47,010 bases of DNA from Burkholderiaceae bacterium. GTDB lineage: Bacteria; Pseudomonadota; Gammaproteobacteria; Burkholderiales; Burkholderiaceae_E. Position numbers and translations under genes: made by a program. Shown in pieces: positions 3,497-38,151 of this stretch. The notes under the pieces were generated by a model. That model was not told the DNA's origin and did no database searches. It saw only the letters and a list, made by a program, of their open reading frames with translations. Location of the stretch: positions 1-47,010 of the forward strand of contig JAHDYE010000001.1 of the NCBI GenBank assembly GCA_023383035.1, written 5' to 3'. Positions within the stretch are counted from its first letter, which is position 1, and each line of letters opens with the position of its first letter.

Positions 3497-3536
3497 CGTG
3501 ACCCGCGAAACCGGGAAGCGGCAAGGAATTTCTGTC

Positions 3537-4715: not shown

Positions 4716-4876
4716 CGAATGTCTCCTGTTGGTTCTTTCCGAATGCGGGCTACCGAGGCGCCGAACTCCTGCGCATCGTCGAGTCGCCCATACCTCCTCG
4801 TAGTGCCGACAGAGCGTCTTCGCGCTCGTCCTTCATTCTTTCGATGCTCGTTGCCGCAAACTACGAGGCGAGGCCG

Positions 4877-5626: not shown

Positions 5627-5736
5627 GACCTCTCCTTCGACCGATAGTGTGTTGTACGACCGCGATTCGGCTGCATCCCTCGTTGTTCGCTCGCTCTCTG
5701 CAGACGGCACATGGAACACGGGCATCGACCCGTCTG

Positions 5737-9397: not shown

Positions 9398-9409
9398 GTC
9401 GCAGCCCCT

Positions 9410-10432: not shown

Positions 10433-10449
10433 GCTTCTCCTCCTTCTGG

Positions 10450-11430: not shown

Positions 11431-11431
11431 C

Positions 11432-12442: not shown

Positions 12443-12542
12443 CGTCGTCCCTGTCGTGGTTCGGTATCTGGATGGGGGCCGACGGCCGCGGGACACGCCC
12501 GGCGGCCGTCAGGGAGCCTGATCGACGCGCGCCTGGCGTCGC

Positions 12543-14309: not shown

Positions 14310-14335
14310 GGGTTTCTCCTCACTGAATTTGCCGG

Positions 14336-16402: not shown

Positions 16403-16703
16403 CGCTTCCTCCTGTCGCGTGTCGCTCTCGCGATTTCTCACGAGAACTGTTCTTCGATCGAACGATTCAAATAACGGCTGCGAAATTCGATGCCGTTTGG
16501 GTTCTCTCGGAAAATGAATTCGAAGACGGTGACCACCGTGCGCCGTCTCCACCGGTCCATTTGCAGGTCTCCTCGCCGTTCGCCCGCTCGTAGCGCATTT
16601 CACGCATCGTTTTCGTCGCGAACGCCGGGCGCCGGCCTAAGCGTGGAAACTTGTTGCTGGGCATGATCCCATCGCATGTGGTATAAATAAATCGAAGCGG
16701 CGT

Positions 16704-18811: not shown

Positions 18812-18920
18812 GGGCCGGACGAATTATGAAATGCGAAACCCGTTGAGGCGAATCAGTTTGACGTCGTCGTCTCTGCGGCTCTGTAATGCCTCCCGCATCC
18901 ATGTTGCTGCAAGGTAGGTG

Positions 18921-19946
18921 ATGCCAAAGCTTCCGAAGTTCAAAGCGGCTGCCGTACAGGCGGCCCCGGCCTTCCTCGATACGCCCGCAACGATCGGGAA
19001 AGTCGGCCGGTACGTGCGCGAAGCTGCCGCAGCCGGCGCGTCCATCGTGGTATTCCCCGAGGTGTTCGTATCCGGCTATCCCTACTGGAACTGGCTGAAG
19101 AACCCGCTCGACGGCAGCGCCTGGTTCAAGCGCCTGTACTACAGCGCGATCGACGTGCCGGGCCCGGAAGTCGATGAGCTCTGCGGCCTTGCGAGCGAGA
19201 ACCGGATCCACATCGCCATCGGCGTCAACGAGCGCGGCGCGAAAAGCGTGGGCGCGATCTACAACACCAACCTGCTGATTTCGCCGGACAAGGGCTTGAT
19301 CAACAGGCAACGCAAGCTGGTGCCGACCTTCGCCGAAAAGCTGTCGTGGACCCCCGGCGACGCGCACGGCCTGCGCGTGTCGGAAACCGAGCTCGGCCCG
19401 GTCGGCATGCTGGCCTGCGGTGAAAACACCAATACGCTGGCGCGCTTCGCGCTGCTGGCCGAAGGCGAACTGCTCCACCTGGCCAATTTCGTGGCCTTCC
19501 CCTTCGTCGAGAACTACGACATGCCGGCTGCGATCAAGACCCGCATCGGCGCCCACTCGTTCGAGGGCAAGGTGTTCAGCATCGTGTCCTGCTCGGCCAT
19601 GTCTCAGGAAATCGTCGATGCCATCGCCGACTCCGAAGAGGAAAAGAAGCGGATGGCGGGCTCGCCCAATGCCTTCTCGGCCATCTTCGATCCGCACGGC
19701 GAGATCATCTCCGAGCCGCTGGTCGACGTCGAGGGCATCACCTATGCCGATATCGATCTCGAGCAATGCATCGCGCCCAAGCAGTATCACGACATTCTCG
19801 GCCACTACAACCGCTTCGACATCCTGAGCCTGCAGATCGACCGCACCGAGCGCTCCCCGGTGCGCTATGTCGGCGAGGCGAGCAAGCCCGCGGGTATCGC
19901 GGGGGCGGAGCAGGAAGCCGCGCCTTCCCTCGTCCCGAGCCGATAG
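18921..19946 (+). CDS. Nitrilase (carbon-nitrogen hydrolase family)
   Basis: Glu in VVFPEVFVSGYP, Lys in NRQRKLVPTFAEKLSW, Cys in MLACGENTNTLARFALLAEGE. Confidence 0.92.
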   Translation: MPKLPKFKAAAVQAAPAFLDTPATIGKVGRYVREAAAAGASIVVFPEVFVSGYPYWNWLKNPLDGSAWFKRLYYSAIDVPGPEVDELCGLASENRIHIAIGVNERGAKSVGAIYNTNLLISPDKGLINRQRKLVPTFAEKLSWTPGDAHGLRVSETELGPVGMLACGENTNTLARFALLAEGELLHLANFVAFPFVENYDMPAAIKTRIGAHSFEGKVFSIVSCSAMSQEIVDAIADSEEEKKRMAGSPNAFSAIFDPHGEIISEPLVDVEGITYADIDLEQCIAPKQYHDILGHYNRFDILSLQIDRTERSPVRYVGEASKPAGIAGAEQEAAPSLVPSR

Positions 19947-19986
19947 GGAATCTTCATCCAGGTTTCATCAAGCCGGAAGAACAATC

Positions 19987-21159
19987 ATGGCTACCGCACT
20001 ACTTCGTTTCGTACAGGCGCTGTCCCTTGCCGCGCTCGGCGTCGCAGCGACCGCCGTCTACGCGCAGGAGAAGGTGAAGGTCGGTTTCCTGTTGCCATAT
20101 AGCGGCACCTACGCCGCACTCGGCGTCGCCATCGAGAACGGCTTCAAGCTGTACGTCGCGGAGAAAGGGGGCAAGCTGGCCGGCCGCGAGATCGAGTACT
20201 TCAAGGTGGACGACGAATCCGATCCCGCCAAGGCGATCCAGAACGTCAACCGCCTGGTGCAGCGCGACAACGTCGATCTGCTGGTCGGCTCGGTGCATTC
20301 CGGCGTGGCGCTGGCCGCGACCAAGGTGGCCAAGGACAACGACGTCACGCTGATCGTGCCCAATGCCGGTGTGGGCGCGATTACGGGAGCCCTGTGCGCG
20401 CCGAACGTGTTCCGCTCGTCCTACTCGGCCTGGCAGACGGCCTACTCCATGGGCAGGGTCGCGGCGCAACAGGGCAAGAAGACCGCGATCACCGTCACCT
20501 GGAAATACGCTGCCGGCGATGAACAGGTCGGAGCGTTCCGCCAGGGCTTCGAGGAGGGGGGCGGCAAGGTGGTGAGAGACCTGACACTGCCGTTCCCGAA
20601 CGTCGAATTCCAGCCGATCCTCACCGAGCTGGTTTCGGCAAGGCCGGAAGCGGTGTTCGGCTTCTTCGCTGGCGCGGGCGCGGTCAAGTTCGTGCAGGAC
20701 TTCGCGGCCGCGGGTCTGAACAAATCGATCACGCTATACGGCTCGGGCTTCTTGACCGAAGGCACGCTGCAAGCGCAGGGTCGGAGCGCGCAGGGCCTGC
20801 AGACCACGCTGCACTATGGCGATGGCCTGAACACGCCGCGCGACAAGGCGTTCCGCCTCGCGTATGCAAAGGCTTTCAAGATGCAGCCTGACGTGTATGC
20901 GGTGCAGGGCTACGACACGGCGCAGATGTTCGAGATCGGCCTGAAGGCCGTCGGCGGCGACGTCAAGAAGAAGGACGCGCTGCGCGCAGCAATGCGCGCC
21001 GCCAGGATCGACAGCCCGCGCGGCACCTTCTCGCTTTCCAAAGCCGGCAATCCGATCCAGGACTTCTACCTGCGCGAAGTGACCGGCGCGGAGAACAAGG
21101 TCATCGGCATCGCCGTCAAGGCGCTTGCCGATCCGGCCATGGGTTGCCAAATGAAGTAG
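19987..21159 (+). CDS. ABC transporter substrate-binding protein (LivK/Peripla_BP_6 type), orphan
   Basis: Signal peptide then VKVGFLLPYSGTYAALGVAIENGF; no adjacent permease or ATPase. Confidence 0.9.
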   Translation: MATALLRFVQALSLAALGVAATAVYAQEKVKVGFLLPYSGTYAALGVAIENGFKLYVAEKGGKLAGREIEYFKVDDESDPAKAIQNVNRLVQRDNVDLLVGSVHSGVALAATKVAKDNDVTLIVPNAGVGAITGALCAPNVFRSSYSAWQTAYSMGRVAAQQGKKTAITVTWKYAAGDEQVGAFRQGFEEGGGKVVRDLTLPFPNVEFQPILTELVSARPEAVFGFFAGAGAVKFVQDFAAAGLNKSITLYGSGFLTEGTLQAQGRSAQGLQTTLHYGDGLNTPRDKAFRLAYAKAFKMQPDVYAVQGYDTAQMFEIGLKAVGGDVKKKDALRAAMRAARIDSPRGTFSLSKAGNPIQDFYLREVTGAENKVIGIAVKALADPAMGCQMK

Positions 21160-21175
21160 TGCGAGGGGATCAACG

Positions 21176-22645
21176 ATGGCGAAATCGCAAGCGGCCCCCA
21201 GCGGCCGTTCTCTGTATTTCGATGGAGATTGGCATCACCCGGATTCGGGGCGCTACGGGCCGACCTTCAATCCCGGGCTCGACGAGCCGATCGCCGATGT
21301 CGCCGAGGCGGGCGCGGTCGACGTTGAGGCTGCGGTGCGCGCGGCTCGTGCCGCTTTCCACGTCTGGCGCGACGTCGCGCCGTTGGAGCGCGGTCGTTTG
21401 CTCAAGGAAGTCGGGACCGTGGTGCGCGCCAATGCGCGCGAACTGGCTGCGCTGGACGCGGCCAACTGCGGCAATCCCGTGCGAGAGATGATCGGCGACG
21501 CCGCGATCGCTGCTGCCCAGCTCGATTTCTTCGCCGGTCTTGTCACCGAGATGAAGGGCGACACGATTCCCATGGGGCCTGATGCGCTGAATCTCACCGT
21601 GCGCCAGCCCCTCGGCGTCGTGGCACGAATTCTCGCGTTCAATCACCCGTTCATGTTCTGCGCCGGCAAGATCGCGGCTCCGCTCGCGGCGGGCAACGCT
21701 GTCATCGTGAAGCCCCCGGAGCAGGCGCCGCTCTCATCGCTGCGGCTGGCCGAACTCATCCACGGCATCTTGCCGAAAGGCGTGTTCAGCGTATTGCCGG
21801 GCGGGCGCGAGGCCGGAGCGGCGCTTGCGGCCCATCCGGGCATCGACAAGGTCGCGATCATCGGCAGCGTCGGTGCAGGGCGGGCGGTGATGCGCGCTGC
21901 CAGCGAGACGATAAAGCCGGTCTTGCTCGAGCTCGGTGGCAAGAACGCGCTGATCGCCTTTCCGGACGCCGATCCGGAACAGACTGCGCAGGCGATCGTG
22001 GGCGGCATGAATTTCACCTGGTGTGGCCAGTCCTGCGGCTCGACCAGCCGGGCCTTCGTGCATCGGGCCATCTACGAGGACGTACTGGCCCGACTCCCCG
22101 CCAAGGCAGCGCACTATGTGCCGGGCCTGCCGACGGACGAGGCGACGACGATGGGCGCGCTCATCAGCGGGGCGCAGTACGAGCGTGTACTCGGCTACAT
22201 CGCCTCGGCCAAGGCGCAGGGCGCTCGCCTGGTGACCGGCGGCGGCACGCCCGATGACCCGGCGCTGCGAAAGGGCTTCTACATCGAGCCGACCATCTTT
22301 GCCGATGTCACGCCTGCCATGCGCATCGCTCGCGAGGAGATCTTCGGCCCGGTGCTGGCGGTCACGCCCTGGGAGGACGAAGCTGCGATGCTGTCGCAGG
22401 TGAATGGCGTGGAATACGGGCTGACCTGCTCTATCTGGACAAACGACTTGCTGAAGGCGCACCGTACCGCCATGGCGGTCGAGGCGGGCTTCGTCTGGAT
22501 CAACGAAGTCTCGAAGCACTTCCTCGGGGCGCCTTTTGGCGGCTGGAAGCAATCCGGCATAGGTCGCGAGGAGTGCCTGGATGAACTCCTGGCCTTTACG
22601 CAGGAGAAGAACGTTCACGTCAGCCTGAAGCAAGGGAAAGCGTGA
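21176..22645 (+). CDS. NAD(P)-dependent aldehyde dehydrogenase
   Basis: 489 aa; FNHPFMFCAGKIAAPLAAGNAVIVKPPEQAPLSS, LELGGKNALIAF, GQSCGSTSR catalytic Cys region, EEIFGPV. Confidence 0.92.
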   Translation: MAKSQAAPSGRSLYFDGDWHHPDSGRYGPTFNPGLDEPIADVAEAGAVDVEAAVRAARAAFHVWRDVAPLERGRLLKEVGTVVRANARELAALDAANCGNPVREMIGDAAIAAAQLDFFAGLVTEMKGDTIPMGPDALNLTVRQPLGVVARILAFNHPFMFCAGKIAAPLAAGNAVIVKPPEQAPLSSLRLAELIHGILPKGVFSVLPGGREAGAALAAHPGIDKVAIIGSVGAGRAVMRAASETIKPVLLELGGKNALIAFPDADPEQTAQAIVGGMNFTWCGQSCGSTSRAFVHRAIYEDVLARLPAKAAHYVPGLPTDEATTMGALISGAQYERVLGYIASAKAQGARLVTGGGTPDDPALRKGFYIEPTIFADVTPAMRIAREEIFGPVLAVTPWEDEAAMLSQVNGVEYGLTCSIWTNDLLKAHRTAMAVEAGFVWINEVSKHFLGAPFGGWKQSGIGREECLDELLAFTQEKNVHVSLKQGKA

Positions 22646-24432
22646 TGGGCATTCCGCCGGCCGGCATCGACGCACCGGTTGCCTCCCATGATGAGGGGAT
22701 CTGGGGCAGCGACGCGGTAGCCGTCATGCTTCGCAAGCTCGACATCCCGTATCTCGCCTTGAATCCCGGATCGAGTTTCCGGGGGTTGCACGACAGCATC
22801 GTGAACCATCTCGGCAATGAGCGGCCGCAGATGCTGTTGTGCCTGCACGAAGAGCATGCCGTTGCCGTGGCCCATGGATACGCGAAGGTGACCGGCCGCC
22901 CCATGGGCGTGATCCTTCACAGCAATGTCGGCCTCATGCATGGTGCGATGGCGATCTACAACGCGTGGTGCGACCGCGTTCCCATGCTCATCCTCGGCGC
23001 TGCCGGTCCTTTCGACGCCGCCGAGCGCCGTCCCTGGATCGACTGGCTTCATACCGCCAGGGATCAAGGCGCCCTGATCCGCCCTTACATCAAATGGGAC
23101 GACCAGCCAGTCTCGCTGCCGGCATCGCTCGAGTCGTTGTTGCGCGCCGTGAACCTGACCCGCTCGACCCCGATGGCGCCGACCTATGTCTGCCTCGATG
23201 TCTCGATGCAGGAGCGGCGCCTGGAGGCGATGCCGGAGTTCCCCGATCCGAAGCGTTACGCGGCACCGTCGACGAGTGTGCCCTCCTCCGATGACCTTGC
23301 GGCCGCGGCGGCGCTGCTCGATGGCGCGAAGAATCCGCTGCTCCTGCTCGGCCGGCTGTCGCGCAGCCCGCGCGACTGGGCGCGTCGCGTAGCGCTCGCC
23401 GAGCGGCTCGACGCCCGGGTGCTCACCGACATCAAGGTCGGCGCCGTATTCCCCACCGACCACGCGCTGCACGCTGCCAAACCCGGGCATTTCCTCGATG
23501 AGGCCGGGGCCCGATGCATCCGGCAGGCTGACGTGATCGTGGCCTTCGACTGGGTGGATCTGGCCGGCACGCTCGCACAGGGCGGCGGTGCGGCCGCCGC
23601 GAAGGTCGTCAACGTCGCGCTGGACCACCATCTGCACAACGGCTGGAGCATGGACCACCAGGCGCTGCCGCCCGCGGACCTGCACCTGAGCGGTGACCCG
23701 GATCTCGCTTTGCACCTCATCGCCGATGAGCTCGGCGTGGGTCCCGGAACGATTCCCGGCACGCTCCGCGCCCTCCCCGCGCTGAGCCTGGACGGCCCGC
23801 CTCGCGAGCTCGACGTCGTCTCGCTCGCTGCGGCAGTCGGCGAGGTCCTGCGCAACGAGGTCGTGTCGCTGGTGCGCCTGCCGCTGGGTTGGGCGGGCGA
23901 TTCCTGGCATTTCCGCCACCCGCTCGACTATCTGGGCTCCGATGGCGGAGCCGGCATCGGCTCCGGCCCCGGCATGCTCGTCGGCGCGGCGCTTGCCCTG
24001 AAGGGGTCCGAGCGCCTTCCGATTGCCATCCTGGGCGATGGAGACACGATGATGGGCGTCTCGGCGCTGTGGTCTGCCGCGCACTACAAGCTGCCCTTCC
24101 TGGCGATCGTCTCGAACAATCGATCGTTCTACAACGACGAGATCCACCAGGAGCGCATCGCCCGCACTCGCGGCCGGCCTGTCGAAAACAAGTGGATCGG
24201 GCAGAAGATCGGCGAGCCCGATATCGACATCGCGGCAATCGCGCGCGCGCAAGGGCTGGTCGGGATCGGGCCGGTTTCGACCACGGACGGACTCGTGACC
24301 GCCGTCCGGGAAGGGCTGGCGGCCGCGAAGAGCGGAAAGCCGGTTCTGATCGATGCGCAGGTGAAGCCCGGCTACAACCCGACCATGGCAGCGGGGATGA
24401 CCCGCGAGGGATCCAGGACCACCGGAGCCTGA
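22645..24432 (+). CDS. ThDP-dependent enzyme, benzoylformate decarboxylase/acetolactate synthase-like
   Basis: HEEHAVAVAHGYAKVTGRP Pyr domain, GDGDTMMGVSALWSAAHYKLPFLAIVSNN ThDP motif; overlaps ALDH stop. Confidence 0.88.
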   Translation: MGIPPAGIDAPVASHDEGIWGSDAVAVMLRKLDIPYLALNPGSSFRGLHDSIVNHLGNERPQMLLCLHEEHAVAVAHGYAKVTGRPMGVILHSNVGLMHGAMAIYNAWCDRVPMLILGAAGPFDAAERRPWIDWLHTARDQGALIRPYIKWDDQPVSLPASLESLLRAVNLTRSTPMAPTYVCLDVSMQERRLEAMPEFPDPKRYAAPSTSVPSSDDLAAAAALLDGAKNPLLLLGRLSRSPRDWARRVALAERLDARVLTDIKVGAVFPTDHALHAAKPGHFLDEAGARCIRQADVIVAFDWVDLAGTLAQGGGAAAAKVVNVALDHHLHNGWSMDHQALPPADLHLSGDPDLALHLIADELGVGPGTIPGTLRALPALSLDGPPRELDVVSLAAAVGEVLRNEVVSLVRLPLGWAGDSWHFRHPLDYLGSDGGAGIGSGPGMLVGAALALKGSERLPIAILGDGDTMMGVSALWSAAHYKLPFLAIVSNNRSFYNDEIHQERIARTRGRPVENKWIGQKIGEPDIDIAAIARAQGLVGIGPVSTTDGLVTAVREGLAAAKSGKPVLIDAQVKPGYNPTMAAGMTREGSRTTGA

Positions 24433-24527: not shown

Positions 24528-25343
24528 TCAGCCCGCGGCTTGCTTCTTCGTCATCCGCATCTCGGTGTAGCGTCCCAACCAGGAATTGACGCCGACGGCG
24601 AGCAGGAATACGACCAGCAGCAGCGCATACATGCGCGGCATATTGAAAGTCACGTAGGTCTGGATGACCGCATAACCCAAACCCTGGTTGGCGAGCTTGG
24701 TCTCGGCGAGCAGCGTGCCGACGATCGCGACCCCCAGACCGATACGGATGCCGTTGAGAACGGGAATCCGCATGGCGGGGATGAAGATCTTCGTGAACAT
24801 CTGGATAGCGCTGAGGCGGAAGCTGAGCCCGACGCGGATCAGCGTTGAATCCACCTGGCGCATCGCGCTCGCAACGCTGATGGCAACCGGAAAGAAGCAC
24901 GACAGTGCGCCCATCGCGACCTTGGACCCCATGCCGACACCGAACCACATGATCAGGATCGGGAAGAAGATGATCTTCGGCGTAGGACCCAGGTAGTAGA
25001 TCAGCGGCTCGAAGGCACCCCCGAGATAGCGGTTGCGCCCGAGTATGACGCCGACGAGGATGCCGCTTCCACCTCCGATCGCCAGCGCCAGCAGGACCTC
25101 CCCCGTCGTGACGGCGAGATGCCAATAGAAGCCGCGGTCGAAAAAGAGCAGCGTGAACTCCTTGGCGATCAGCGGCAGAGGCGGCACGACGTCGCGGTAA
25201 AGCAATCCCGATCGGGCAACCAATTCCCACGTGACGAGGATCGCCGCCAGGATTGCCACGCGCGTCATGATTACCGCCCGCGCTTCGTTGAACGCGGGGG
25301 TTGGGACCGGCTTCGCCGGTCCCAGTGCGGCAAGCCGCTGCAT
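24528..25343 (-). CDS. ABC transporter permease (SsuC/TauC-like)
   Basis: BPD inner-membrane domain; MQRLAALGP start at 25343 preceded by GGAGGAGAAATC. Confidence 0.88.
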   Translation of the reverse strand: MQRLAALGPAKPVPTPAFNEARAVIMTRVAILAAILVTWELVARSGLLYRDVVPPLPLIAKEFTLLFFDRGFYWHLAVTTGEVLLALAIGGGSGILVGVILGRNRYLGGAFEPLIYYLGPTPKIIFFPILIMWFGVGMGSKVAMGALSCFFPVAISVASAMRQVDSTLIRVGLSFRLSAIQMFTKIFIPAMRIPVLNGIRIGLGVAIVGTLLAETKLANQGLGYAVIQTYVTFNMPRMYALLLVVFLLAVGVNSWLGRYTEMRMTKKQAAG

Positions 25344-25369
25344 GATTTCTCCTCCAGGACTACCGTCGG

Positions 25370-26335
25370 TCACCGGCGCGGCGGAATCTGGATCAGTTCG
25401 TCGAGCTGTTCTTTGGTCAAAGGCTGCGCGGTGTACTTCAGCACGACCGCATCGCGAACGATGGTGTCCAGACCGACGATGCGATCCGGATTCAGCGCCT
25501 CTTTCGGGAAGAAGTCGTCTCGTGTACGCCGGGCGATCTCCAGCGGCACGCCGACGAAGTCTGCGTAGACCTTGAGCGCTTCGTCGCTGGCATACATCGC
25601 CTCCACCGTCTCGCGATAGGCAGCCATGTAGCGCTCGATCTGGTCCTTCTTGTTCTGCAGCACTGACGTATTCGTGATCAGCAGGCGCACGGTCTGGGTC
25701 TTGAAGGCCCTGGTGTCGTTGCCGGTGGCGATGACCCGAATCTCACCCTTGTTGAGCTGCTCCAGGCCGAAGGGAGGAGCCGACCAACCGACGTCGATCT
25801 GGCCCGACATGACCTGGGTGAGCGTGGGAGCGGGACCTCCGGTGGCCGTCAACCGGGGCTTGATGCCATTTTCCTGGGCGAAGGCGTTGACGATGCCATG
25901 CGTGGAAGAGCCGTTGGTCGAATAGGCGACCGTCCGACCGTCGAATTCCTTCAGCGTCTTGATGGGCGAATCGGCCTTCACGTACCAGAACAGATCCTGG
26001 CCGCCGGTGGTCTCTGCAGCGATGATGCGCACAGGAGCGCCTTTCGAGTAGGCCGACAGCGCCCCCATGATGCCGCCCGCGACTCCGATGTCGACGCTGT
26101 TCGAGAGCACGGCCTGCTGCGTCTCCCCGCCACCCTGCGTGTAGAGCAGCTGCAGTTCCAGGTTGTGCTTCTTGAAGATACCAAGGCGGCTGCCGATCTC
26201 CGACACCGAGGTGTCCCAGTTGCCGCGCTGGCCGACGGCGAGCTTGAGCCGATCCTGCGCCTGTGCCAGACCCGCACTCGAAGCTGCCATGACGACAACG
26301 CCAGCAGCGAACAAAAGCTGCTTCAGAATATTCAT
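25370..26335 (-). CDS. ABC transporter substrate-binding protein (NMT1/SsuA-like)
   Basis: Signal peptide MNILKQLLFAAGVVVMAASSAGLAQAQ; NMT1-like core (SVDIGVAGGIMGALSAYSKGAPVRIIAA). Confidence 0.88.
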   Translation of the reverse strand: MNILKQLLFAAGVVVMAASSAGLAQAQDRLKLAVGQRGNWDTSVSEIGSRLGIFKKHNLELQLLYTQGGGETQQAVLSNSVDIGVAGGIMGALSAYSKGAPVRIIAAETTGGQDLFWYVKADSPIKTLKEFDGRTVAYSTNGSSTHGIVNAFAQENGIKPRLTATGGPAPTLTQVMSGQIDVGWSAPPFGLEQLNKGEIRVIATGNDTRAFKTQTVRLLITNTSVLQNKKDQIERYMAAYRETVEAMYASDEALKVYADFVGVPLEIARRTRDDFFPKEALNPDRIVGLDTIVRDAVVLKYTAQPLTKEQLDELIQIPPRR

Positions 26336-26402
26336 TTGAATCCTCCTTGTAGTGATGTCCGGTTTCCGGCAAGCCGCCGGCAAACCGCTCCTCAGACCGC
26401 GC

Positions 26403-27395
26403 TCAGATCCTGAAAACCTCCAACGTAGACGGATGGAAAAGCTCTTCGATCGCCAGCTGGCGAGGCGAGAGACCTTGAGAATGGTGAGCCTTCAGGAAAG
26501 CATCGAGCGCATGGCGGTTCGGCCCGACCCCGTAAGGCCAGAACTCCTCGCCCATCAAATCCCGGGCCGACCGTAGTTGCTCCTCGACGAAAGGCAGCGT
26601 GACCTTCGTTGCAGAGGTATCACTCAACCGATCGAGCGCATCGTGCTTGGACTGTTCGAAGGCCTTGAGCAGTGCAGCCGGAAGCCACGGGTGTTCATCG
26701 ACCACCGTGCGACGGGCGCCGATCATGTGCATGATCGGAAATACCTTCGTGCGCCGATAGTAGTCCGTAGCGACAGATACCGGATCCGGAAAGAGCCGCA
26801 CGATATTGGGATGCCCGGCATCGAAAGACGAAGGCGAGCGTGGGCCGATGAAGCCGTCGATCTCGCCCGCGGCAAGCATCTGATTCAAGGATCGATCCGC
26901 AGGCGCCTGCTCCAAACGGATCTCGGACGGCAGCGACACCTGAATCTTCTCGGCGCGGCCCGGCTGCTCGATGCCGCCCCGCACCCAGATCACGTCCGAG
27001 GGCTTCACCCCGTAGTCGTCCTCCAGGAGGCTGCGAATCCAGACGCAGGCGGTGAGCTGATATTCAGGGCAACCGATGCGCTTGCCCTTCAGGTCCTTCG
27101 GCGTCTCGATCCCACGGTCGTTGCGAACGAAGATGCCTGAATGTCGGAAGGCTCGCGATACGAATGCCGGCACGCCGACATAGGGGTTCGTCCCTTGCGC
27201 AGTCTTCACCGTGAAGCTCGAAAGCGACGCTTCGCAGACGTCGAACTCGCCGTGCCTGAAGGCGCGAAAGAAGATCTCCTCCGGCCCCAGCTTCATGAAC
27301 ACCGGATCGACACCATCGATCCGAACTTCGCCGTCGAGCAACGGCCTGTTGCGGTCGTAGTCGCCGATCGCGATGGACAGACGGAGTTTCGACAA
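26403..27395 (-). CDS. PBP2-fold protein related to 4,5-dihydroxyphthalate decarboxylase (Pht5-like) / ABC substrate-binding protein without signal peptide
   Basis: KLRLSIAIGDYDRNRPLLDGEVRIDGVDPVFMKLGPEEIFFRAFRHGEFDVCEASLSSF...FRHSGIFVRNDRGI; TTG start at 27395 with GGAGGG upstream. Confidence 0.78.
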   Translation of the reverse strand: MSKLRLSIAIGDYDRNRPLLDGEVRIDGVDPVFMKLGPEEIFFRAFRHGEFDVCEASLSSFTVKTAQGTNPYVGVPAFVSRAFRHSGIFVRNDRGIETPKDLKGKRIGCPEYQLTACVWIRSLLEDDYGVKPSDVIWVRGGIEQPGRAEKIQVSLPSEIRLEQAPADRSLNQMLAAGEIDGFIGPRSPSSFDAGHPNIVRLFPDPVSVATDYYRRTKVFPIMHMIGARRTVVDEHPWLPAALLKAFEQSKHDALDRLSDTSATKVTLPFVEEQLRSARDLMGEEFWPYGVGPNRHALDAFLKAHHSQGLSPRQLAIEELFHPSTLEVFRI

Positions 27396-27496: not shown

Positions 27497-28252
27497 TTAT
27501 CGTGCGGGTCGCAGCCAGCGTTCGACCCACTCCAGCACCGAGAACAGGACAACACTGACCAGAATCACGAAAACGATGGTGGCAAAGACGCCTGGAAGAT
27601 CGTAGCGTTCGGCAAGATCGTTGATCAGTTGGCCGAGCCCGCCGAAGTTGATCAGGAACTCGACGCCGATGAGGTTGATCAACGTGAAGATCAGTCCCAG
27701 GCGAATGCCGGTGAAGATCGTCGGAATCGACGCGGGGAACTGGATCTTCCAGAAGAGCTGCGAGGCGGTCAGGTTGTAGCTGTAACCCACGTTGAGCAGC
27801 GTCTTCCTGACGCCAAGGAATCCCTCGAGCGTCTTGAGTAAAGCCGGTGCGAGCCCCGCCACGAATCCCATCGCGACGATCGTCGCCGAGCTCCGGCCGA
27901 ATATGACGAGAAAGAGCGGATAGGCGAGCACGATCGGCGCAGCGGCGGCAGCCGCGATCCATGGCTCCATCGCCAGTCTGGCGATGCGGTGTCTGTGAAG
28001 CAGCATGCCGATGCCGATGCTGAAGCCGATGACCAGCAGGCTGGCGACAAGCGCCTCCACGCCGGTCACCAGCAGCCGATGCAGAAGCTGCTCCTCGGCG
28101 AACAGCCTGCGAAAGCTGAGGACAACGGCAGAAGGAAACGGGATGACGAACTGATTCAGCACCCCGATGCGCAGCATGAACTCGACGCCGCCGAGAAAAA
28201 TCACGACGCAACCGAGCCCGAATGCAGGGGGAGGAATCCTCGCGATTCGCAC
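27497..28252 (-). CDS. ABC transporter permease (SsuC/TauC-like)
   Basis: BPD-type permease; GTG start at 28252 just downstream of the ATPase stop. Confidence 0.85.
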   Translation of the reverse strand: MRIARIPPPAFGLGCVVIFLGGVEFMLRIGVLNQFVIPFPSAVVLSFRRLFAEEQLLHRLLVTGVEALVASLLVIGFSIGIGMLLHRHRIARLAMEPWIAAAAAAPIVLAYPLFLVIFGRSSATIVAMGFVAGLAPALLKTLEGFLGVRKTLLNVGYSYNLTASQLFWKIQFPASIPTIFTGIRLGLIFTLINLIGVEFLINFGGLGQLINDLAERYDLPGVFATIVFVILVSVVLFSVLEWVERWLRPAR

Positions 28253-28257
28253 GGCGT

Positions 28258-29145
28258 TCAGCCCCCCCTTAGCCGCGCAGTTTGCTCGGCTTCGGCCATG
28301 CCGCGCGATGCCTCCTCGCGCAGATCGTTCCAGATCTCCGCCACATGGCGGCCAAAGGCTTCGCTTCCGACGACATCGCCGGCGCGCGGACGCGGCAGAC
28401 GGATATCGACGATCCGCTTCACCCGGCCGGGTCGGAACGTCATGATGAGAACGCGGTCGGAGAGCTGCACCGCTTCGGTGATGTTGTGGGTGATGAGCAG
28501 CGTGGTCTGCCGCAACTCCTGCTGGATCTTGAGAACCTTGTCTCCGAGCAGCACGCGGGTCTGCTCGTCCAGAGCCGCGAACGGCTCGTCCATCAGCAGG
28601 ATCCTGGGCTCGAACACCAGCGTGCGGGCAATGGCAACGCGCTGGCGCATGCCGCCCGAGAGCTCGGACGGATAGCGCTGCTCGAAACCGGTCAGTCCGA
28701 CCAGGTCGATGAACCTGCGCGCGACGGCCTGGCGCTCGGCCTTGGAGACACCTTTGATCTCCAGCGGAAAGGCAACGTTGTCGATCACGGTGCGCCACGG
28801 AAAGGTCGACTCCTCCTGGAAGACCATGCCGATGGAGGCGTGAGGACCTGAAATTCGCTCGCCGCCGACAAGAACGTCGCCGTCGTAACCAGGTACGAGT
28901 CCGCCGAGGATGTTGAACACGGTCGACTTGCCGCAACCAGACGGACCGATGATCGATACGAACTCCCCTCGTCTGATCTCGAAGGACACGCCATCGACTG
29001 CGGTCACCGTGCCTTGACGCGTATCGAAACGCATCGAGACGTCCTTGATGACGAGGTCGATTTCATCTGCCGTGTCGGTGGCCAGATGCAGCTTCGCGGT
29101 CGATGCCCGCATGTCCTTGTCGTCCTCCGAATGGCTATCCGTCAT
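28258..29145 (-). CDS. ABC transporter ATP-binding protein (SsuB/TauB-like)
   Basis: GPSGCGKSTVFNILGGL, LSGGMRQRVAIARTLVFEPRILLMDEPFAALDEQTR. Confidence 0.92.
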   Translation of the reverse strand: MTDSHSEDDKDMRASTAKLHLATDTADEIDLVIKDVSMRFDTRQGTVTAVDGVSFEIRRGEFVSIIGPSGCGKSTVFNILGGLVPGYDGDVLVGGERISGPHASIGMVFQEESTFPWRTVIDNVAFPLEIKGVSKAERQAVARRFIDLVGLTGFEQRYPSELSGGMRQRVAIARTLVFEPRILLMDEPFAALDEQTRVLLGDKVLKIQQELRQTTLLITHNITEAVQLSDRVLIMTFRPGRVKRIVDIRLPRPRAGDVVGSEAFGRHVAEIWNDLREEASRGMAEAEQTARLRGG

Positions 29146-29195
29146 ACGATTGAGCGCGCAGCTGATCGCCGCTGTAGACAACGTCTGCATAGGGC

Positions 29196-30416
29196 CTACT
29201 CGAAAGCGCCCAGACGCTGATAGTGGTCATACTGTTCGGCGCTCAGGCCAAGCAGCTCGCAGAACACATAGGCGTTGTCGGCGCCGAGAAGCGGCGCGGC
29301 GCCCGTGACGTCACCGGGCGTGTCCGACAGATCGAATGCCGAGAAGTAGCAGGCCAGATCGCCCATCACGCCGTGACGCCGCCGGCGCCAGACGCGCCGA
29401 TGCAGCAGCTGCGGATCGGCGAACAAGTCGGCCATCGTGTTGACCGCATAGGCTCGCAATCCGGCCGACTGCAGAAGTGCCGCCGCTTCGGGCGCCTCCT
29501 GGTCCGCCGACCACTGCGCGACGATCTCACTGAGCTCCGCCTCGTGGCTCATGCGCGCTTCCAGCGATGCGAAGCGCGGATCTTTCGCCAGGCCCGGCCT
29601 TCCGAGGATCTCCGAGAACTGCTCGAACTCGCGATCGCTCCAGCAAGAAAGCGCCAGCCATCGCCCTCCCCGGCAGGGAAACGCGTCGTGGGGTGCGGCG
29701 CGTGGGTCGCGATTGTTCGCCCGCTGCGCCGTGGCCTGCGTGCTGTGGTACTCGTGCAAGGCGCTGGCAATGAACACCAGGCCGCTTTCGTACTGCGAAA
29801 GGTCGATCCAGGCGCCTCGTCCGCATCGCCGCTGCCGATCGAGTGCGGCCAGCACTGCGGAAGCGCCGAGCGACGATGCGATGAAGTCGATGTATGGCCC
29901 GTAGAGCAGCTGAGGAGGTCCATCCGGGCTGCCGGTGAGGCCGCAGAACCCGGCCAGCGCCGACAATTGCGAGCCGAACCCGGGCGTATGCGCTCGGGGG
30001 CCGCTCTGGCCCATGTTGCAGCTCGAGATCATCACCACGCCCGGATTCAGCTTACGCGCGGCTTCGTACCCCAGGCCTAGGCGCGTCATCACCTCGGGCC
30101 GCATGTTCTCCACGACGATGTCCGACCAGGCAATGAGCCGCCTTGCCATCTCGAGGCCCGCGTCGTTCTTCAGATCCAGCGTCACGGCACGCTTGGAGTC
30201 GTTGAACATTGCGAAGCATCCGCCCCGGTCGAGTCCGGGTCGTCCGTCCTTGAAGGGCGGATACTCCGCCCGGAAGCCATCGGGTCGACTGCGCGACTCC
30301 ACGTGAATGACCTTGGCGCCGAAGGACGCGAGCATCTTGCCGATATGCGGGCCGGCCGCGTAGGCGCCGAACTCGACGACCTTCACGCCGGACAGTGCGG
30401 TAGAGATGGCGCTCAT
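29196..30416 (-). CDS. CaiB/BaiF class III CoA-transferase, putative catalytic subunit (Asp present)
   Basis: SGVKVVEFGAYAAGPHIGKMLASFGAKVIHVES; GPYIDFIASSLGA with Asp177; RGAWIDLSQYE; start MSAIS overlaps upstream stop (ATGA). Confidence 0.9.
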   Translation of the reverse strand: MSAISTALSGVKVVEFGAYAAGPHIGKMLASFGAKVIHVESRSRPDGFRAEYPPFKDGRPGLDRGGCFAMFNDSKRAVTLDLKNDAGLEMARRLIAWSDIVVENMRPEVMTRLGLGYEAARKLNPGVVMISSCNMGQSGPRAHTPGFGSQLSALAGFCGLTGSPDGPPQLLYGPYIDFIASSLGASAVLAALDRQRRCGRGAWIDLSQYESGLVFIASALHEYHSTQATAQRANNRDPRAAPHDAFPCRGGRWLALSCWSDREFEQFSEILGRPGLAKDPRFASLEARMSHEAELSEIVAQWSADQEAPEAAALLQSAGLRAYAVNTMADLFADPQLLHRRVWRRRRHGVMGDLACYFSAFDLSDTPGDVTGAAPLLGADNAYVFCELLGLSAEQYDHYQRLGAFE

Positions 30417-31561
30417 CCGATGCTTCCGAATTCCGCGAGAAGTGAGGTGAAAGTCACCTCCTCGCCGGGTGCATGCCGAAGCGCAGCCCGCTCGCCGTCG
30501 ACGCGCGCGAAGCTTCCACAATGTCGCTGCGCCGTTCCGTTGCGATCCGCGATGTCCGCCCAGAACTCACGAGCGGCGAGTTGCGGGTCTTCAGCAATGT
30601 CGGCAACGGTGAACACCGGATAGCCGAGCATCTCGCGCCGGCTCGTTTCCTCCAGGAACTCGCGCTTCGAAATCGTGAGGAAGAAACGAGCGATCGGCTC
30701 CTCTAGCGCGTCCACCTCGGCCTGCGTGGCCAGCTTCGGATCGAAGCGCTTCCAGTCGACCGTTCTGAGCGCGCCGCGCGCTACACCCCGCTCGCGCATC
30801 CATTCCACCAGCTGCATGTTCGTCCGGCGCCCGGCCGGGCCGCCGTAAAGCACGAAATTGAGATAGCCGTCGAGGCAGGGCCAGAACGCCCGATAGCGCG
30901 CCCCCGTGATCGAGCGGCCGGTCACGTAGGCGCCGCATCGGCTCGGGTTGGTTCCCTCGATGTCCCAGAAGGCGGCTGCGTGCGACGACGCCAGGATGAC
31001 CGACGCCTGGGCCGAAACGTCCACCTGTTGTCCCACTCCGGCGACGGTGCGGTGTACGAGAGCCACGAGGGCACCGACCGCCGCCTGAGCACCGGCCCAG
31101 CCGTAGGACTGCGGCACCGTCACGCGTGTCGGCGGCCCGTCGGGCTCACCCGCCAGGGACATCGCCCCCCCGGCCGCCATCAGCTCGATGTCGGATGCCG
31201 ACCAGTCCGCACGCGGCCCTTCGCGTCCGAATGGCGTCACCGACACGTGAACGAGGCGAGGATTCAACGCGCGAAGGCGAGGCCAGCTCAATCGTCCGGC
31301 GAGCGGATCGCTTGCCTGCGACGACTCGATGAGCACGTCAGCATGTGCGAGGAGCTGGTCAAGCTGCGCCTGCCCGTCTTCCGTTGCAAGAGCGAGACGA
31401 AGCAGGCGTTTGTTGACATGGTTTGCCTGCCAATCGAAATCGTCGATACGGGCGTCCGGAGGTTCGATCCGGACGACGTCGGCGCCGAGGTCAGCGAGCA
31501 ACCGCCCGGCGAGCCAGCCGAGGCGGTTGCTCAGATCGAGAACGCGGTACCCGCTCAACAT
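30413..31561 (-). CDS. CaiB/BaiF class III CoA-transferase-like subunit lacking the expected catalytic Asp
   Basis: LSGYRVLDLSNRLGWLAGRLLADLGADVVRIEPP; Asp position reads QSYGWAGAQAAVGAL; GQQVDVSAQASV. Confidence 0.87.
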   Translation of the reverse strand: MLSGYRVLDLSNRLGWLAGRLLADLGADVVRIEPPDARIDDFDWQANHVNKRLLRLALATEDGQAQLDQLLAHADVLIESSQASDPLAGRLSWPRLRALNPRLVHVSVTPFGREGPRADWSASDIELMAAGGAMSLAGEPDGPPTRVTVPQSYGWAGAQAAVGALVALVHRTVAGVGQQVDVSAQASVILASSHAAAFWDIEGTNPSRCGAYVTGRSITGARYRAFWPCLDGYLNFVLYGGPAGRRTNMQLVEWMRERGVARGALRTVDWKRFDPKLATQAEVDALEEPIARFFLTISKREFLEETSRREMLGYPVFTVADIAEDPQLAAREFWADIADRNGTAQRHCGSFARVDGERAALRHAPGEEVTFTSLLAEFGSIG

Positions 31562-31580
31562 GGCGAGTTTTTGTCCGCGC

Positions 31581-33161
31581 CTACCGACCGGTTCGGGCAA
31601 GCGACAGCACCCAGCCCGCCATGCGGGACTTCATCGTCTCGATATCCTTCGTGCTGAAGAAGTCCTCCGGCTTCACGAGATCCACGCCGTACACCGGTCG
31701 ATGGAAGTCGCTCTCGTACCCGTAGGGCACGGTGGCGTCGATCCCCATGCCGCCCTCGAACAGCGTATTCGAAGCGGTCCACTGCTTGTCGCCCGAGGTC
31801 ATGCGCTCGGCGGGCATGAAGGTCTGGCCGCGGCCGCCCGGGATCGGATTGAGGATGTCCGTACGCGGATTCACGCGCGTCGTCAGGCACCACATGATGT
31901 CGTCCATCGAGTAGATGTCGACGTCCTCGCTGACCGCGATCGCCAGGCGCATTCCCTGCGAGCACGACAGGATCGCCCCCAGGAAGTTGCGCTGCCAGCC
32001 TTCTTCGATCTGGTTGCGCTTCTTGACCTGGATGATGCATCCGCCCCAGTCGGTCATGCAGTACGGGATATGCACGTTCTGCACGATGCCGGGCTGCAGC
32101 CGCTCGCACAGCGCGAAGATCGCCGACTCGCGCACCGACGTGTCGATGTTCGAGTCGTCGGCCGTGTGCACGCCGAGCGGGAAGATGATGGGCTTGCTCT
32201 CGCGCTTGCGCATCGTGATCGCCGTGACGTGGAACGTGGGCGCCTTGTAGGCCTTGCCCATGTACCCCGCCCACTCCGGATGGAAATGGAAGCGACCCTG
32301 GATGTCCGCCTTCTCGGACTCGGCCGTCTCGTAGCGCTTGTCGCGCGGATGCAGGTAGCCCTCGAGGACGTACTCGGCGTCGGCCAGCGTGTACGCGTCG
32401 ATCGTCTTGCATTTCACGAGCCGGATCGGCGAGCCCTGGATCGCCCCCGCGATGCCGACCTCGTCGCATCCCTTGGGCAGGATCGCGTAGTCGAAACCCG
32501 CGCCCGCCACGTACGTGCACGCCGGCGGCACGCCGAAGCACATGGTCAGCGGAATCGGCTGGTCGTCCTTGTAGTGCTTGGTCATCACCTGCCACATGTG
32601 CGACCCGGGCGAGATCTGGAAGGTGCCGACGTTGCCCCAGCGGAAGTTCATCCGGTTGTAGCCGATGTGGCTGCCGCCGTCGAAGTAGTCGCCGATGACG
32701 CACGAGATGCCCGAGCCGATCGTCAGCTCGGTTTCCAGCGGCGTATGGCGGATCGCCGTCAACCACTTGTTGACATCGAGGTCGTCGGTGATCACATCCT
32801 GGTGCACCGGCGCCTCCTCCGAGGAAATGATCACCGACTGCAGCGGATGATCGATCGCATGGGCGACCTTCTTCACGCGCTCGAGCGAATCCTTCCAGCC
32901 GAACATGTCCTCGACGACGCGGATGTCGCCGAAGAGGTTGGTGATCGCGCGCGCGTGCGGCATGCCCTTCACGTTGTTGAACAGCATCGGCAGGCTGCCG
33001 TCGAAGATCTTCTGCAGGCCGGTGATCTCGAGATCGGGGTTGACCTCCTTGTCCGTCTCGATCAGATAGCCTTTCGAGCGGAACCACTCGACCGTCGAAC
33101 GCAAGCTGGTCACGTCCTTGTTTTCGACTTTCGTTTTACGTTTTTCGACCGAATCGTTCAC
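31581..33161 (-). CDS. UbiD-family (prenyl-FMN) decarboxylase, candidate phthaloyl-CoA-type decarboxylase
   Basis: 526 aa; AIAVSEDVDIYSMDDIMWCLTTRVNPRTD and FHVTAITMR match UbiD family; partnered with UbiX. Confidence 0.88.
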   Translation of the reverse strand: MNDSVEKRKTKVENKDVTSLRSTVEWFRSKGYLIETDKEVNPDLEITGLQKIFDGSLPMLFNNVKGMPHARAITNLFGDIRVVEDMFGWKDSLERVKKVAHAIDHPLQSVIISSEEAPVHQDVITDDLDVNKWLTAIRHTPLETELTIGSGISCVIGDYFDGGSHIGYNRMNFRWGNVGTFQISPGSHMWQVMTKHYKDDQPIPLTMCFGVPPACTYVAGAGFDYAILPKGCDEVGIAGAIQGSPIRLVKCKTIDAYTLADAEYVLEGYLHPRDKRYETAESEKADIQGRFHFHPEWAGYMGKAYKAPTFHVTAITMRKRESKPIIFPLGVHTADDSNIDTSVRESAIFALCERLQPGIVQNVHIPYCMTDWGGCIIQVKKRNQIEEGWQRNFLGAILSCSQGMRLAIAVSEDVDIYSMDDIMWCLTTRVNPRTDILNPIPGGRGQTFMPAERMTSGDKQWTASNTLFEGGMGIDATVPYGYESDFHRPVYGVDLVKPEDFFSTKDIETMKSRMAGWVLSLARTGR

Positions 33162-33197
33162 TGGGGTTTCTCCTGTTTGCGTGCCTAGGCACTGATT

Positions 33198-33803
33198 TCA
33201 GACTGGACCGGCTACCGCCGGTTGACGCTGCGATTGCGTGTGCATGGCTCCGTCCCAGCGTCGCGCGAACGGGGCTGGAATGCCGAACTGGTCGAGGACC
33301 CGCGCGACGATGTGATCGACCATGTCGTCGAGCGTTTCGGGGTGGTTGTAGAAGGCCGGCACCGGCGGCATGATCGTCACGCCCATCCGTGAAAGCCTGA
33401 GCAGGTTCTCGAGATGCAGGTCGCTCAGCGGCGTCTCGCGCGCCACGAGCAGCAGCTTGCGGCGCTCCTTCAGGATGACGTCCGCGGCGCGGTGTATCAG
33501 GTGGTCGCCTGCGCCCTGGGCGATCGCCGCGACCGTACGCATCGAGCACGGGATGATGACCATGCCGTCGGTGACGAACGAGCCCGACGAGACCGACGCC
33601 CCCATGTTCCCGGCGTCGTGCACCACCGAGGCGAGCTCGCGCACCTGTTTGACGCTCGAACGCGTTTCATGCCCGATCGTCTGTATCGCCCATTTGCTCA
33701 GGATCAGGTGGGTTTCGACGTCGGTGCCCTGTAGCGCCTCCAAAAGCCGAATTCCGAACACGGCGCCTGTCGCGCCCGTCATGCCGACGATGAGTCTTCT
33801 CAT
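33198..33803 (-). CDS. UbiX/Pad1-type flavin prenyltransferase
   Basis: RLIVGMTGATGAVFGIRLLEAL; IPCSMRTVAAIAQGAGDHLIHRAADVILKERRKLLLVARETPLSDLHLENLLRLSRMG. Confidence 0.94.
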   Translation of the reverse strand: MRRLIVGMTGATGAVFGIRLLEALQGTDVETHLILSKWAIQTIGHETRSSVKQVRELASVVHDAGNMGASVSSGSFVTDGMVIIPCSMRTVAAIAQGAGDHLIHRAADVILKERRKLLLVARETPLSDLHLENLLRLSRMGVTIMPPVPAFYNHPETLDDMVDHIVARVLDQFGIPAPFARRWDGAMHTQSQRQPAVAGPV

Positions 33804-34013: not shown

Positions 34014-34811
34014 ATGACAACCGATTCAGACAGCCATCAGCGGGCCGGCACACAAAGCATCGAACGCGCGTCGCTCGTCATGCGCGTCATCGCCTCACGC
34101 AACGGCCTGGGCATGCGCCTCGTCGATGTGACACGCTGCGCGCAGCTGGAACAGTCGACCGCGCACCGGATCCTCAAGTGCCTGATCGCCGAAGGCATGG
34201 TGAGGCGCGATCCGGAGACGCGCCGCTACCACCTAGGGCACCAGATCTTCGAGCTCGGCCTCGCCGCGGCCTCACAGTTCAACCTGCACACCATTTGCCA
34301 TCCGTCGCTCGTTCGCCTGTCGGAGAAGACGGGCGACACGGTGTTCCTCACGGTGCGCAGCGGTTTCGATACCGTGTGTCTGGATCGCAGGGAAGGCGCT
34401 TTTCCGATCAGGACGCTGACGCTCGACGTCGGCACTCGACGGCCGCTGGGCGCCGGCGCAGGCGGCGTGGCACTGCTGATGCTCCTGCCCGAGCGCACCG
34501 TCGAGGAGATCGTCAACGCGAACGCGCTTCGGCTCGGCGGCTACGGAGATCTCACCGTGCCGGCTGTCCTGAAGCTGGTGAACCAGTCCAGACAGCTCGG
34601 CTACGCGCTGAACGACAGCCACATCACGCCGGGCGCCACCTCGGTCGGCATGGCGATCCGTTCGCGATACGGTGTGCCGTTCCTCGCGATCAGCATCGGA
34701 GCCATCTCGAGCCGGATGGAGAGCAACCGCCAGCGCGAGCTCGCCGCCCTCTTGAGGGAAGAGGTCGAAGTACTCGAACGATTGTTGAGTGAAAGCGCAC
34801 ACCCCCTCTAG
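34014..34811 (+). CDS. IclR-family transcriptional regulator
   Basis: 265 aa; TQSIERASLVMRVIASRNGLGMRLVDVTRCAQLEQSTAHRILKCLIAEGMVRRD, IclR effector domain. Confidence 0.93.
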   Translation: MTTDSDSHQRAGTQSIERASLVMRVIASRNGLGMRLVDVTRCAQLEQSTAHRILKCLIAEGMVRRDPETRRYHLGHQIFELGLAAASQFNLHTICHPSLVRLSEKTGDTVFLTVRSGFDTVCLDRREGAFPIRTLTLDVGTRRPLGAGAGGVALLMLLPERTVEEIVNANALRLGGYGDLTVPAVLKLVNQSRQLGYALNDSHITPGATSVGMAIRSRYGVPFLAISIGAISSRMESNRQRELAALLREEVEVLERLLSESAHPL

Positions 34812-36249: not shown

Positions 36250-38151
36250 ATGCTGCTGCGACGCTATGAGATGCCTTGGCGCCGCGCCTTCGAGGCCTAT
36301 GGGGGAGCGGGATGGCTGATCGCGGCGCTCTACTTTGCCGCCCTCCCGCTCATTGGTTCGGTGCCACCGCCTGCGGCCGTCTCTCTGGCGGCAGGCTGCC
36401 TGCTGATGGGGCTGCGACGACTGACGCAGGCGGTGCGAGTGCTGCGCTTGCGAAGCGCTCTTGCGGGCCGGCGCATCCAGGTGATCGCGCCACAGGATCT
36501 TGAACGACTTTACGCCGACCGCGCGCAGGTATTCCTCGGCTTCGGCTTCGAGTGGCGGCCCGTACATGCGCAACGGCTCTACGAGCTCTCGAAGATCAAC
36601 TACCGCGACTTCATCGTCCCGCGCTGGCTGCAGTTCGCGCTCGGCCAAGGCGCCAATGCGCAGCCGGATGCCGAGATCGGCCTGCCGTACATCCACGGCG
36701 TCGAGCCCACGGAGCAACCGCTGTTCCGGCCCCTGCAGAACTTCGAAGGCGGCACCCTGCTCGTGGGTACGACGCAATCGGGCAAAGGGGTCGCACTGGC
36801 CAACCTGATCACTCAGGCCGTGCGCCGCGGTGACGTGGTGATCGTGATCGACCCGAAGAACAGCCGGCGCCTGAAGCGTGTCGTCGAGCGCGCCTGCGCG
36901 GACTACCGGGACGCGGACACCTTCATGGAATTCCATCCGGCATTCCCCGAACGGGGCGTGCGCCTGGACTTCACCTTCAATTGGCAAAAACCGACCGAGA
37001 TCGCCTCGCGCATCCAGGCCATCATGCCACCGGACACGGCGGGCGCCTTCAGCGCTTTCGGCTGGGATGCGGTCAACGTGGTGGTCCAGGGCTTGGTCGA
37101 ACTCGAGGAGCGTCCCAACCTCATCAAGCTGACCAAGTACATCGAGGGCGGCATCGAGCCGGTGCTGGAGATGTCGCTGCGCCGCTTCTACGAGCGCCTC
37201 CTCGGCAATGCCTGGCGCGACCAGCAAGAGATGCGCAGGCTGCTGCACGAGGCGCATAAGGGCAATATACGCCGGCCTTCCGAAGCCGCGAGCGCCGACT
37301 TGCTGGCCTTCGTTGCCTACTACGAGCACCACGTCGCGCAGAACCAGCGCAGCAAGGTGCTCGACGCGCAGGTGCGCACCTTCCGGCACAACCGCGAGCA
37401 CTACCAGAAGATCACGGCCAACCTGTTGCCCGTGTTGTCGATGCTGACTTCCGGCGATCTGGGCCGCAGCCTGTCCCCCGATCCGTTCGACGCCGACGAC
37501 ATACGTCCGATCATGAACTTCGAGAAGATCGAGCGCGGCGGGCACGTGCTGTACATGTGCCTCGATGCCCTGCCCGACCCCTCGGTGGCGTCGGCGATCG
37601 GCGCGCTGGCGCTGGCCGACCAGGCGGCTCGCGCGGGGATGCGCTACAACCTGGGCGCCTATCAGCGCATTTCGCTCTTTGTCGACGAGGTCGCCAACGT
37701 CATCAACCAGCCACTGATCGAGATCCTCAACAAGGGAGCCGAAAGCGGCATCTTCGCGACCTGCGCGATGCAGACGCTGGCCGACCTCGCAAGGCGGCTG
37801 GGCAGCGAGGACGCAGCGCGCATGGCGCTGGGCAACCTGAACAACCTGATCGCGCTGCGCACGAAGGACAGGCCGACGCAGGATTTCGTCGTGGAGACCT
37901 TCGGCAAGACCGCCATCCATACCGTGCGCGTCGGTCTGAGCCACGGTGCCGATGCCCATCTGGGCGACTTCTCGTCGAGCTACTCGACGCAGCTCACCGA
38001 GAGCTTCGAGGAGGTGGTCCCCGCGGACATGCTCGGAAAGCTGCCGAACCTGCAGTATTTCGCGTCGGTCTCGGGTGGACGCATCATCAAGGGGCGCTTT
38101 CCGATCATCGACCCGGATGCCGGGCCTGCGTCGCCGAAGCGCATCCCATGA
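36250..38151 (+). CDS. traD: Conjugative coupling factor TraD (SXT/TOL-type T4CP)
   Basis: Walker A LLVGTTQSGKGVA, VIVIDPKNSRRLK, Walker B ISLFVDEVANVI; two N-terminal TM segments. Confidence 0.93.
   Translation: MLLRRYEMPWRRAFEAYGGAGWLIAALYFAALPLIGSVPPPAAVSLAAGCLLMGLRRLTQAVRVLRLRSALAGRRIQVIAPQDLERLYADRAQVFLGFGFEWRPVHAQRLYELSKINYRDFIVPRWLQFALGQGANAQPDAEIGLPYIHGVEPTEQPLFRPLQNFEGGTLLVGTTQSGKGVALANLITQAVRRGDVVIVIDPKNSRRLKRVVERACADYRDADTFMEFHPAFPERGVRLDFTFNWQKPTEIASRIQAIMPPDTAGAFSAFGWDAVNVVVQGLVELEERPNLIKLTKYIEGGIEPVLEMSLRRFYERLLGNAWRDQQEMRRLLHEAHKGNIRRPSEAASADLLAFVAYYEHHVAQNQRSKVLDAQVRTFRHNREHYQKITANLLPVLSMLTSGDLGRSLSPDPFDADDIRPIMNFEKIERGGHVLYMCLDALPDPSVASAIGALALADQAARAGMRYNLGAYQRISLFVDEVANVINQPLIEILNKGAESGIFATCAMQTLADLARRLGSEDAARMALGNLNNLIALRTKDRPTQDFVVETFGKTAIHTVRVGLSHGADAHLGDFSSSYSTQLTESFEEVVPADMLGKLPNLQYFASVSGGRIIKGRFPIIDPDAGPASPKRIP

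Follow-up and report, generated by a model that had tools for sequence, protein, structure and literature searches.

A 47,010-nucleotide stretch of DNA from a Burkholderiaceae bacterium (contig JAHDYE010000001.1, hereafter the window) carries a ubiX gene, a ubiD gene and two CoA-transferase genes side by side on the minus strand. A four-gene set of this already known kind would turn phthalate, a breakdown product of plasticisers, into benzoyl-CoA without oxygen. The locus raises the questions of which aryl dicarboxylate is used here, whether the host is equipped to consume the product, and what the neighboring genes, some of which are otherwise found with oxygen-dependent phthalate breakdown, might contribute.

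Organization of the operon

The order ubiX, ubiD, CoA-transferase A and CoA-transferase B had been proposed for the minus strand in an initial annotation made from the sequence, and the open reading frames agree with the Pfam and NCBIfam assignments on both the gene families and their positions. All Pfam matches of the four frames (Flavoprotein, the N-terminal, middle and C-terminal UbiD domains, and CoA_transf_3 twice) are far above cut-off. All frames of the operon are open, and it is complete with a UbiX, a regulator and an importer. The features of the locus are as follows, with identities given in part to the phthalate operon on plasmid 2 of Aromatoleum aromaticum EbN1.

21176-22645, plus strand: aldehyde dehydrogenase (ALDH), possible 2-carboxybenzaldehyde dehydrogenase, PhdK-like (Pfam Aldedh; 66-69% identical to ALDHs whose genes adjoin that of the thiamine-diphosphate (ThDP) enzyme, both within and outside phthalate clusters)
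22642-24432, plus strand: ThDP enzyme of the benzoylformate-decarboxylase superfamily, possible phthalate feeder (Pfam TPP_enzyme N, M and C; gene neighborhoods)
24528-25373, minus strand: ABC importer permease 2 (Pfam BPD_transp_1)
25370-26383, minus strand: ABC importer substrate-binding protein, NMT1/SsuA family (Pfam NMT1)
26403-27395, minus strand: pht5-type gene, relative of 4,5-dihydroxyphthalate decarboxylase (TTG start at 27395 after GGAGG)
27497-28267, minus strand: ABC importer permease 1 (Pfam BPD_transp_1)
28258-29190, minus strand: ABC importer ATPase (Pfam ABC_tran; 63-65% identical to ATPases in loci L011, L025, L056, L094 and L095)
29196-30416, minus strand: subunit B of a predicted succinyl-CoA:phthalate CoA-transferase, with putative catalytic Asp177 (CoA_transf_3)
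30413-31600, minus strand: subunit A of the same predicted enzyme, without the catalytic Asp (CoA_transf_3; Tyr at the Asp position); translation may in fact begin at the ATG near 31561
31581-33161, minus strand: ubiD (pcd), predicted phthaloyl-CoA decarboxylase (Pfam UbiD N, middle and C)
33198-33803, minus strand: ubiX, predicted flavin prenyltransferase (Pfam Flavoprotein; NCBIfam UbiX-family cut-offs passed; 76% identical to both EbN1 ubiX copies)
34014-34811, plus strand: IclR-type regulator, divergent from ubiX (66% identical to the IclR protein encoded beside EbN1 ubiX)
36250-38151, plus strand: TraD-type coupling protein (Pfam TrwB/TraG-D; 71% identical to TraD of a Piscinibacter plasmid)

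The arrangement of the four genes is not a matter of chance, because order and strand are kept in 22/79 related genome loci, several of the remaining ones ending at contig ends, as well as on EbN1 plasmid 2. Like the window, this plasmid carries an IclR gene nearby and transfer genes; compared with the window, its transferase subunits are 70% (A) and 71% (B) identical, and the UbiD proteins of its two ubiX-ubiD copies 89-91%. Homologues of the regulator (55-69% identical) are found in many pcd loci. EbN1 differs in that its transferase genes are followed by a TRAP transporter of the TAXI type and in that it holds a second copy of ubiX-ubiD and one further UbiD. The window carries no TRAP genes, although a TRAP-type phthalate transporter is usual for such operons, if perhaps not defining; an Ssu-type ABC importer enclosing pht5 lies downstream instead.

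The two ubiX-ubiD copies of EbN1 plasmid 2 (L080:13784-16016 and L080:23911-26141) are 99.0-99.4% identical, the second being without transferase genes, and Aromatoleum buckelii (L008) has two copies as well. The extra UbiD of EbN1, which lies beside pcd (L080:19092-20606), is distant from Pcd (24% identical), and homologues that are 63-86% identical to the EbN1 member occur in L001, L004, L007, L009, L012, L017, L030, L031, L036, L037, L040, L042, L045, L051, L052 and L066. No close homologue of this protein was found in the host of the window, where the best match is 37% identical.

Judged by its genes, the operon belongs to the o-phthalate type of denitrifiers, and we consider it highly probable that it serves o-phthalate catabolism, is carried by a probably conjugative element and feeds an anaerobic benzoyl-CoA pathway of the host. 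In the proposed route, a heteromeric family-III CoA-transferase, with A as the non-catalytic and B as the catalytic subunit, would transfer CoA from succinyl-CoA to phthalate. The unstable phthaloyl-CoA would then be decarboxylated to benzoyl-CoA and CO2 by the UbiD, for which the UbiX of the operon would supply prFMN, and benzoyl-CoA would be consumed by the anaerobic pathway of the host (Bcr, Dch, Oah and Had). The divergent IclR protein probably controls the operon.

Relationships of the decarboxylase and the CoA-transferase

When searched against all PDB sequences, the UbiD of the window matches phthaloyl-CoA decarboxylase (8PMK and 8OZ5) with 1126 bits, whereas the next UbiD scores 149 bits. 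Over 514 residues, 464 are identical to 8PMK (90%), and this identity, together with the gap in score, rules out a vanillate, gallate or ubiquinone decarboxylase. We also inferred a maximum-likelihood tree with relatives from the 79 genome loci, EbN1 and the solved enzyme, which is labeled 'Thauera' in the tree on our assumption of its organism, the PDB search naming none. The window sequence adjoins a group (SH-aLRT 99) of Sulfuritalea, Sterolibacterium, Rhodoferax, Polaromonas, Aromatoleum, EbN1 and the solved enzyme. The homologue from Desulfosarcina cetonica, a phthalate degrader (PMC13040137), is 70% identical and placed on a deeper branch, such that the window sequence lies between it and the solved enzyme. 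The deep branches and the root of this tree are unsure, because the search was short, support was calculated by SH-aLRT alone and the outgroup is very distant. By both the PDB search and the tree, the UbiD groups with phthaloyl-CoA decarboxylase, as the phthalate-type reading of the initial annotation demanded.

The same reading fares equally well for the CoA-transferases, which match the EbN1 phthalate subunits and are far under the NCBIfam curated cut-offs for formyl/oxalate, carnitine, mesaconate and glutarate enzymes (for example, 188 of 750 for glutarate); these assignments are rejected. In the separate trees of A and B, the window sequences are found with Nitrosomonadales, Aromatoleum, Polaromonas and Sulfuritalea loci. 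At the alignment column that we take, by analogy with formyl-CoA transferase, to hold the catalytic Asp, this residue is present in 40/40 aligned B subunits and 0/44 A subunits, which mostly have Tyr. The closest solved pair is the benzylsuccinate CoA-transferase BbsEF (PDB 9FN0), likewise a heteromeric family-III enzyme, whose chains A and B match subunits A and B, respectively, and whose non-catalytic subunit carries Tyr at the Asp position. However, BbsEF acts on another substrate, and with phmmer scores of 122 and 194 bits it is related to the window subunits far less closely than the EbN1 phthalate pair.

Pht5 and the ABC importer

Downstream of the operon, a Pht5-like protein and an SsuBC-like importer had been noted as codirectional with it. 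Both are present, and Pht5 is a true relative of 4,5-dihydroxyphthalate decarboxylase, with full-length similarity to PDB 9JP7 (436 bits over 313 residues). Its homologues in clusters of Rieske oxygenase, reductase and dehydrogenase genes on plasmids (59-68% identical) are often labeled ABC binding proteins. We reject this label for the window protein, given the 9JP7 match and an N-terminus (MSKLRLSIAIGDYDRNRP) that, by eye, has no signal-like sequence. More distant Pht5-family genes (40-44%) lie near pcd in L021, L039 and L041. No phthalate Rieske oxygenase, reductase or dihydrodiol dehydrogenase was found within the window, and a complete aerobic 4,5-dihydroxyphthalate pathway is dismissed on this ground. 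The best Rieske match in the host, an incomplete bin, is 38% identical.

The importer genes directly follow the CoA-transferase genes on the same strand, with pht5 enclosed within them, and the stretch examined holds no further phthalate transporter, which argues against assigning the importer to the ThDP/ALDH module. On the other hand, on Rhizobium and Agrobacterium plasmids the same ABC type accompanies ThDP and ALDH genes but no Pcd, and it also accompanies the ThDP enzyme in L056, while L025 carries this ABC plus a TRAP system beside pcd. Because of this association, and because L025 has both transporters, the importer may carry the substrate of the ThDP enzyme rather than phthalate. We see an even chance that the adjoining importer serves the ThDP/ALDH module and not phthalate, in which case two catabolic units would stand side by side.

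Mobility and the host bin

To the right of the operon are TraD, TraK-like and TrbI-like genes, which make it likely that the contig belongs to a plasmid or to an integrative conjugative element. Of 74 genomes from this family, only this one and one from another genus carry the decarboxylase at the threshold used. The bin to which the window belongs, as contig 1 of 479, is 83% complete and 5% contaminated. Within this incomplete bin, genes of an anaerobic benzoyl-CoA pathway are present, with the bcr-like members below cut-off and dch partial: oah (623 bits, cut-off 464) lies beside had, which is also over its cut-off, and a dch broken by the contig end, and a separate contig encodes a BcrC-like and a BcrB-like HGD-D protein together with two activase-like proteins similar to BcrA and BcrD, all under the NCBIfam curated cut-offs. 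The G+C content of the had-oah-dch and bcr-like contigs is similar (0.65-0.67 vs 0.65). Neither boxB nor narG was found in the bin, absences that are weak given its incompleteness; with boxB not found, a box pathway in the host is dismissed.

Bin membership of a mobile contig is no proof that all genes share one cell, as mis-binning can occur. The operon might then be a passenger whose product is unused in this host, either through mis-binning or through a benzoyl-CoA pathway that does not work, and the state of the bin, the conjugation genes on the contig, the single other family genome with the gene and the missing narG are all consistent with this. It is nevertheless improbable, as the frames are open throughout, the operon includes its own UbiX, regulator and importer, and the same bin holds the had-oah-dch and bcr-like contigs, whose G+C content is similar.

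Substrate of the operon

The transferases of PA01 and EbN1 have been reviewed as active on o-phthalate and not on other isomers (PMC13040137). By homology to this system, the phthalate-type CoA activation and UbiD decarboxylation originally proposed for the locus are supported, and the isomer, which had been left open, is now narrowed to o-phthalate as the most likely substrate. With transferases that are 30% diverged from the characterized ones, a shifted substrate is possible. That the same combination of CoA activation and UbiD decarboxylation here serves some other aryl dicarboxylate (isophthalate, terephthalate, homophthalate or a substituted phthalate), as transferase identities of just 70-71% and neighboring ABC, ALDH and ThDP genes that hint at further substrates might suggest, is very unlikely given the 90% identity of the UbiD to the solved phthaloyl-CoA decarboxylase, a known isophthalate pathway that employs a CoA ligase (PMC13040137), and an isophthalate decarboxylase reported near phenolic acid decarboxylase subunit C, separate from Pcd (PMC8269228).

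The ALDH-ThDP module

The ALDH and ThDP genes overlap by 4 bases and converge on the operon from the left. They are preceded on the same strand by genes for a carbon-nitrogen hydrolase of the nitrilase/amidase family and a periplasmic binding protein (18918-21159), which may be part of the same unit. Further left (827-16603), the window holds genes for a branched-chain-type ABC importer, an SDR, 2-oxoacid dehydrogenase E1, E2 and E3, and hydantoinase A and B; in L031, which carries a pcd cluster, homologues of HyuB (80%) and E1 (60-69%) are close by.

An ALDH gene is near in 18/19 plasmid neighborhoods of the ThDP family, and Pht5 and/or a phthalate Rieske oxygenase is near the ThDP gene in 13/19. 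All 13 are among the 15 neighborhoods whose ThDP enzyme has at least 53.8% identity to that of the window, a line that was set after the data were seen, and the 19 were picked from best hits and are non-independent, several coming from closely related roseobacters. Genes for alpha-hydroxy acid oxidases occur in five of these ThDP loci. The aerobic phdK-pht clusters of Thalassospira and roseobacters resemble the window in their ALDH, ThDP enzyme and Pht5 relatives, which are mostly 51-68% identical, but they lack Pcd and encode a Rieske oxygenase, a reductase and a dihydrodiol dehydrogenase, none of which is present here. In Thalassospira, the cluster has been tied to growth on 2-carboxybenzaldehyde via phthalate (PMC9604089). 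From its superfamily and its neighbors, including the alpha-hydroxy acid oxidase genes, we infer that the ThDP enzyme could convert 2-carboxybenzoylformate to 2-carboxybenzaldehyde. Our literature search on phthalonate and homophthalate found no catabolism paper among the matches listed, and that on benzoylformate decarboxylase with phthalate clusters found nothing relevant. The literature searched, which was largely without subscription journals, holds no description of such an operon combined with Pht5, ALDH-ThDP and ABC importer genes close to transfer genes, and we do not claim the newness of this combination with confidence.

Several aerobic phthalate clusters contain nadC, the gene for quinolinate phosphoribosyltransferase (L099:9104-9895, L100:9005-9856, L101:8993-9844 and L102:16863-17744). 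Phthalate is a substrate analogue in structures of this enzyme (PMC3633916), and one may speculate that the extra copy shields NAD synthesis from phthalate.

Distribution and implications

The 79 relatives of pcd that were retrieved (68-94% identical) are spread over Pseudomonadota, Thermodesulfobacteriota, Myxococcota, Binatota, Chloroflexota, Actinomycetota and Gemmatimonadota. Phthalates have been produced industrially for about 70 years, and an origin within this time does not fit the spread over phyla or the divergence between near neighbors, which ranges from about 10% (UbiD) to 30% (transferases). Among 33 genomes with pcd relatives, for which completeness figures are not given, both oah and boxB are detected in 12, only oah in 4, only boxB in 8 (L010, L019, L033, L037, L041, L051, L052 and L067) and neither in 9. 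In five of the boxB-only genomes (L010, L019, L033, L037 and L041), pcd is accompanied by the CoA-transferase pair. This raises, without proving, the possibility that the phthaloyl-CoA route feeds the oxygen-dependent box pathway, in which benzoyl-CoA is epoxidized aerobically.

While the core operon is already known in kind, its setting is unusual: it lies in another organism, probably on a transferable element, beside genes that belong elsewhere to oxygen-dependent phthalate breakdown. We tentatively propose, as a possibility that is on balance doubtful, that the element brings together the anaerobic phthaloyl-CoA operon, a feeder upstream of it, in which the ThDP enzyme, the PhdK-like dehydrogenase and an ABC importer of their own would lead from 2-carboxybenzoylformate through 2-carboxybenzaldehyde to phthalate, and a decarboxylase of the aerobic route. 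If this is true, phthalate would arise naturally as an intermediate in a side-chain pathway and would not be solely a plasticiser product, and the phthaloyl-CoA route would be far older than industrial phthalates, with some aerobes feeding the box pathway by it. The linked ALDH-ThDP module suggests a natural source of phthalate that can be tested.
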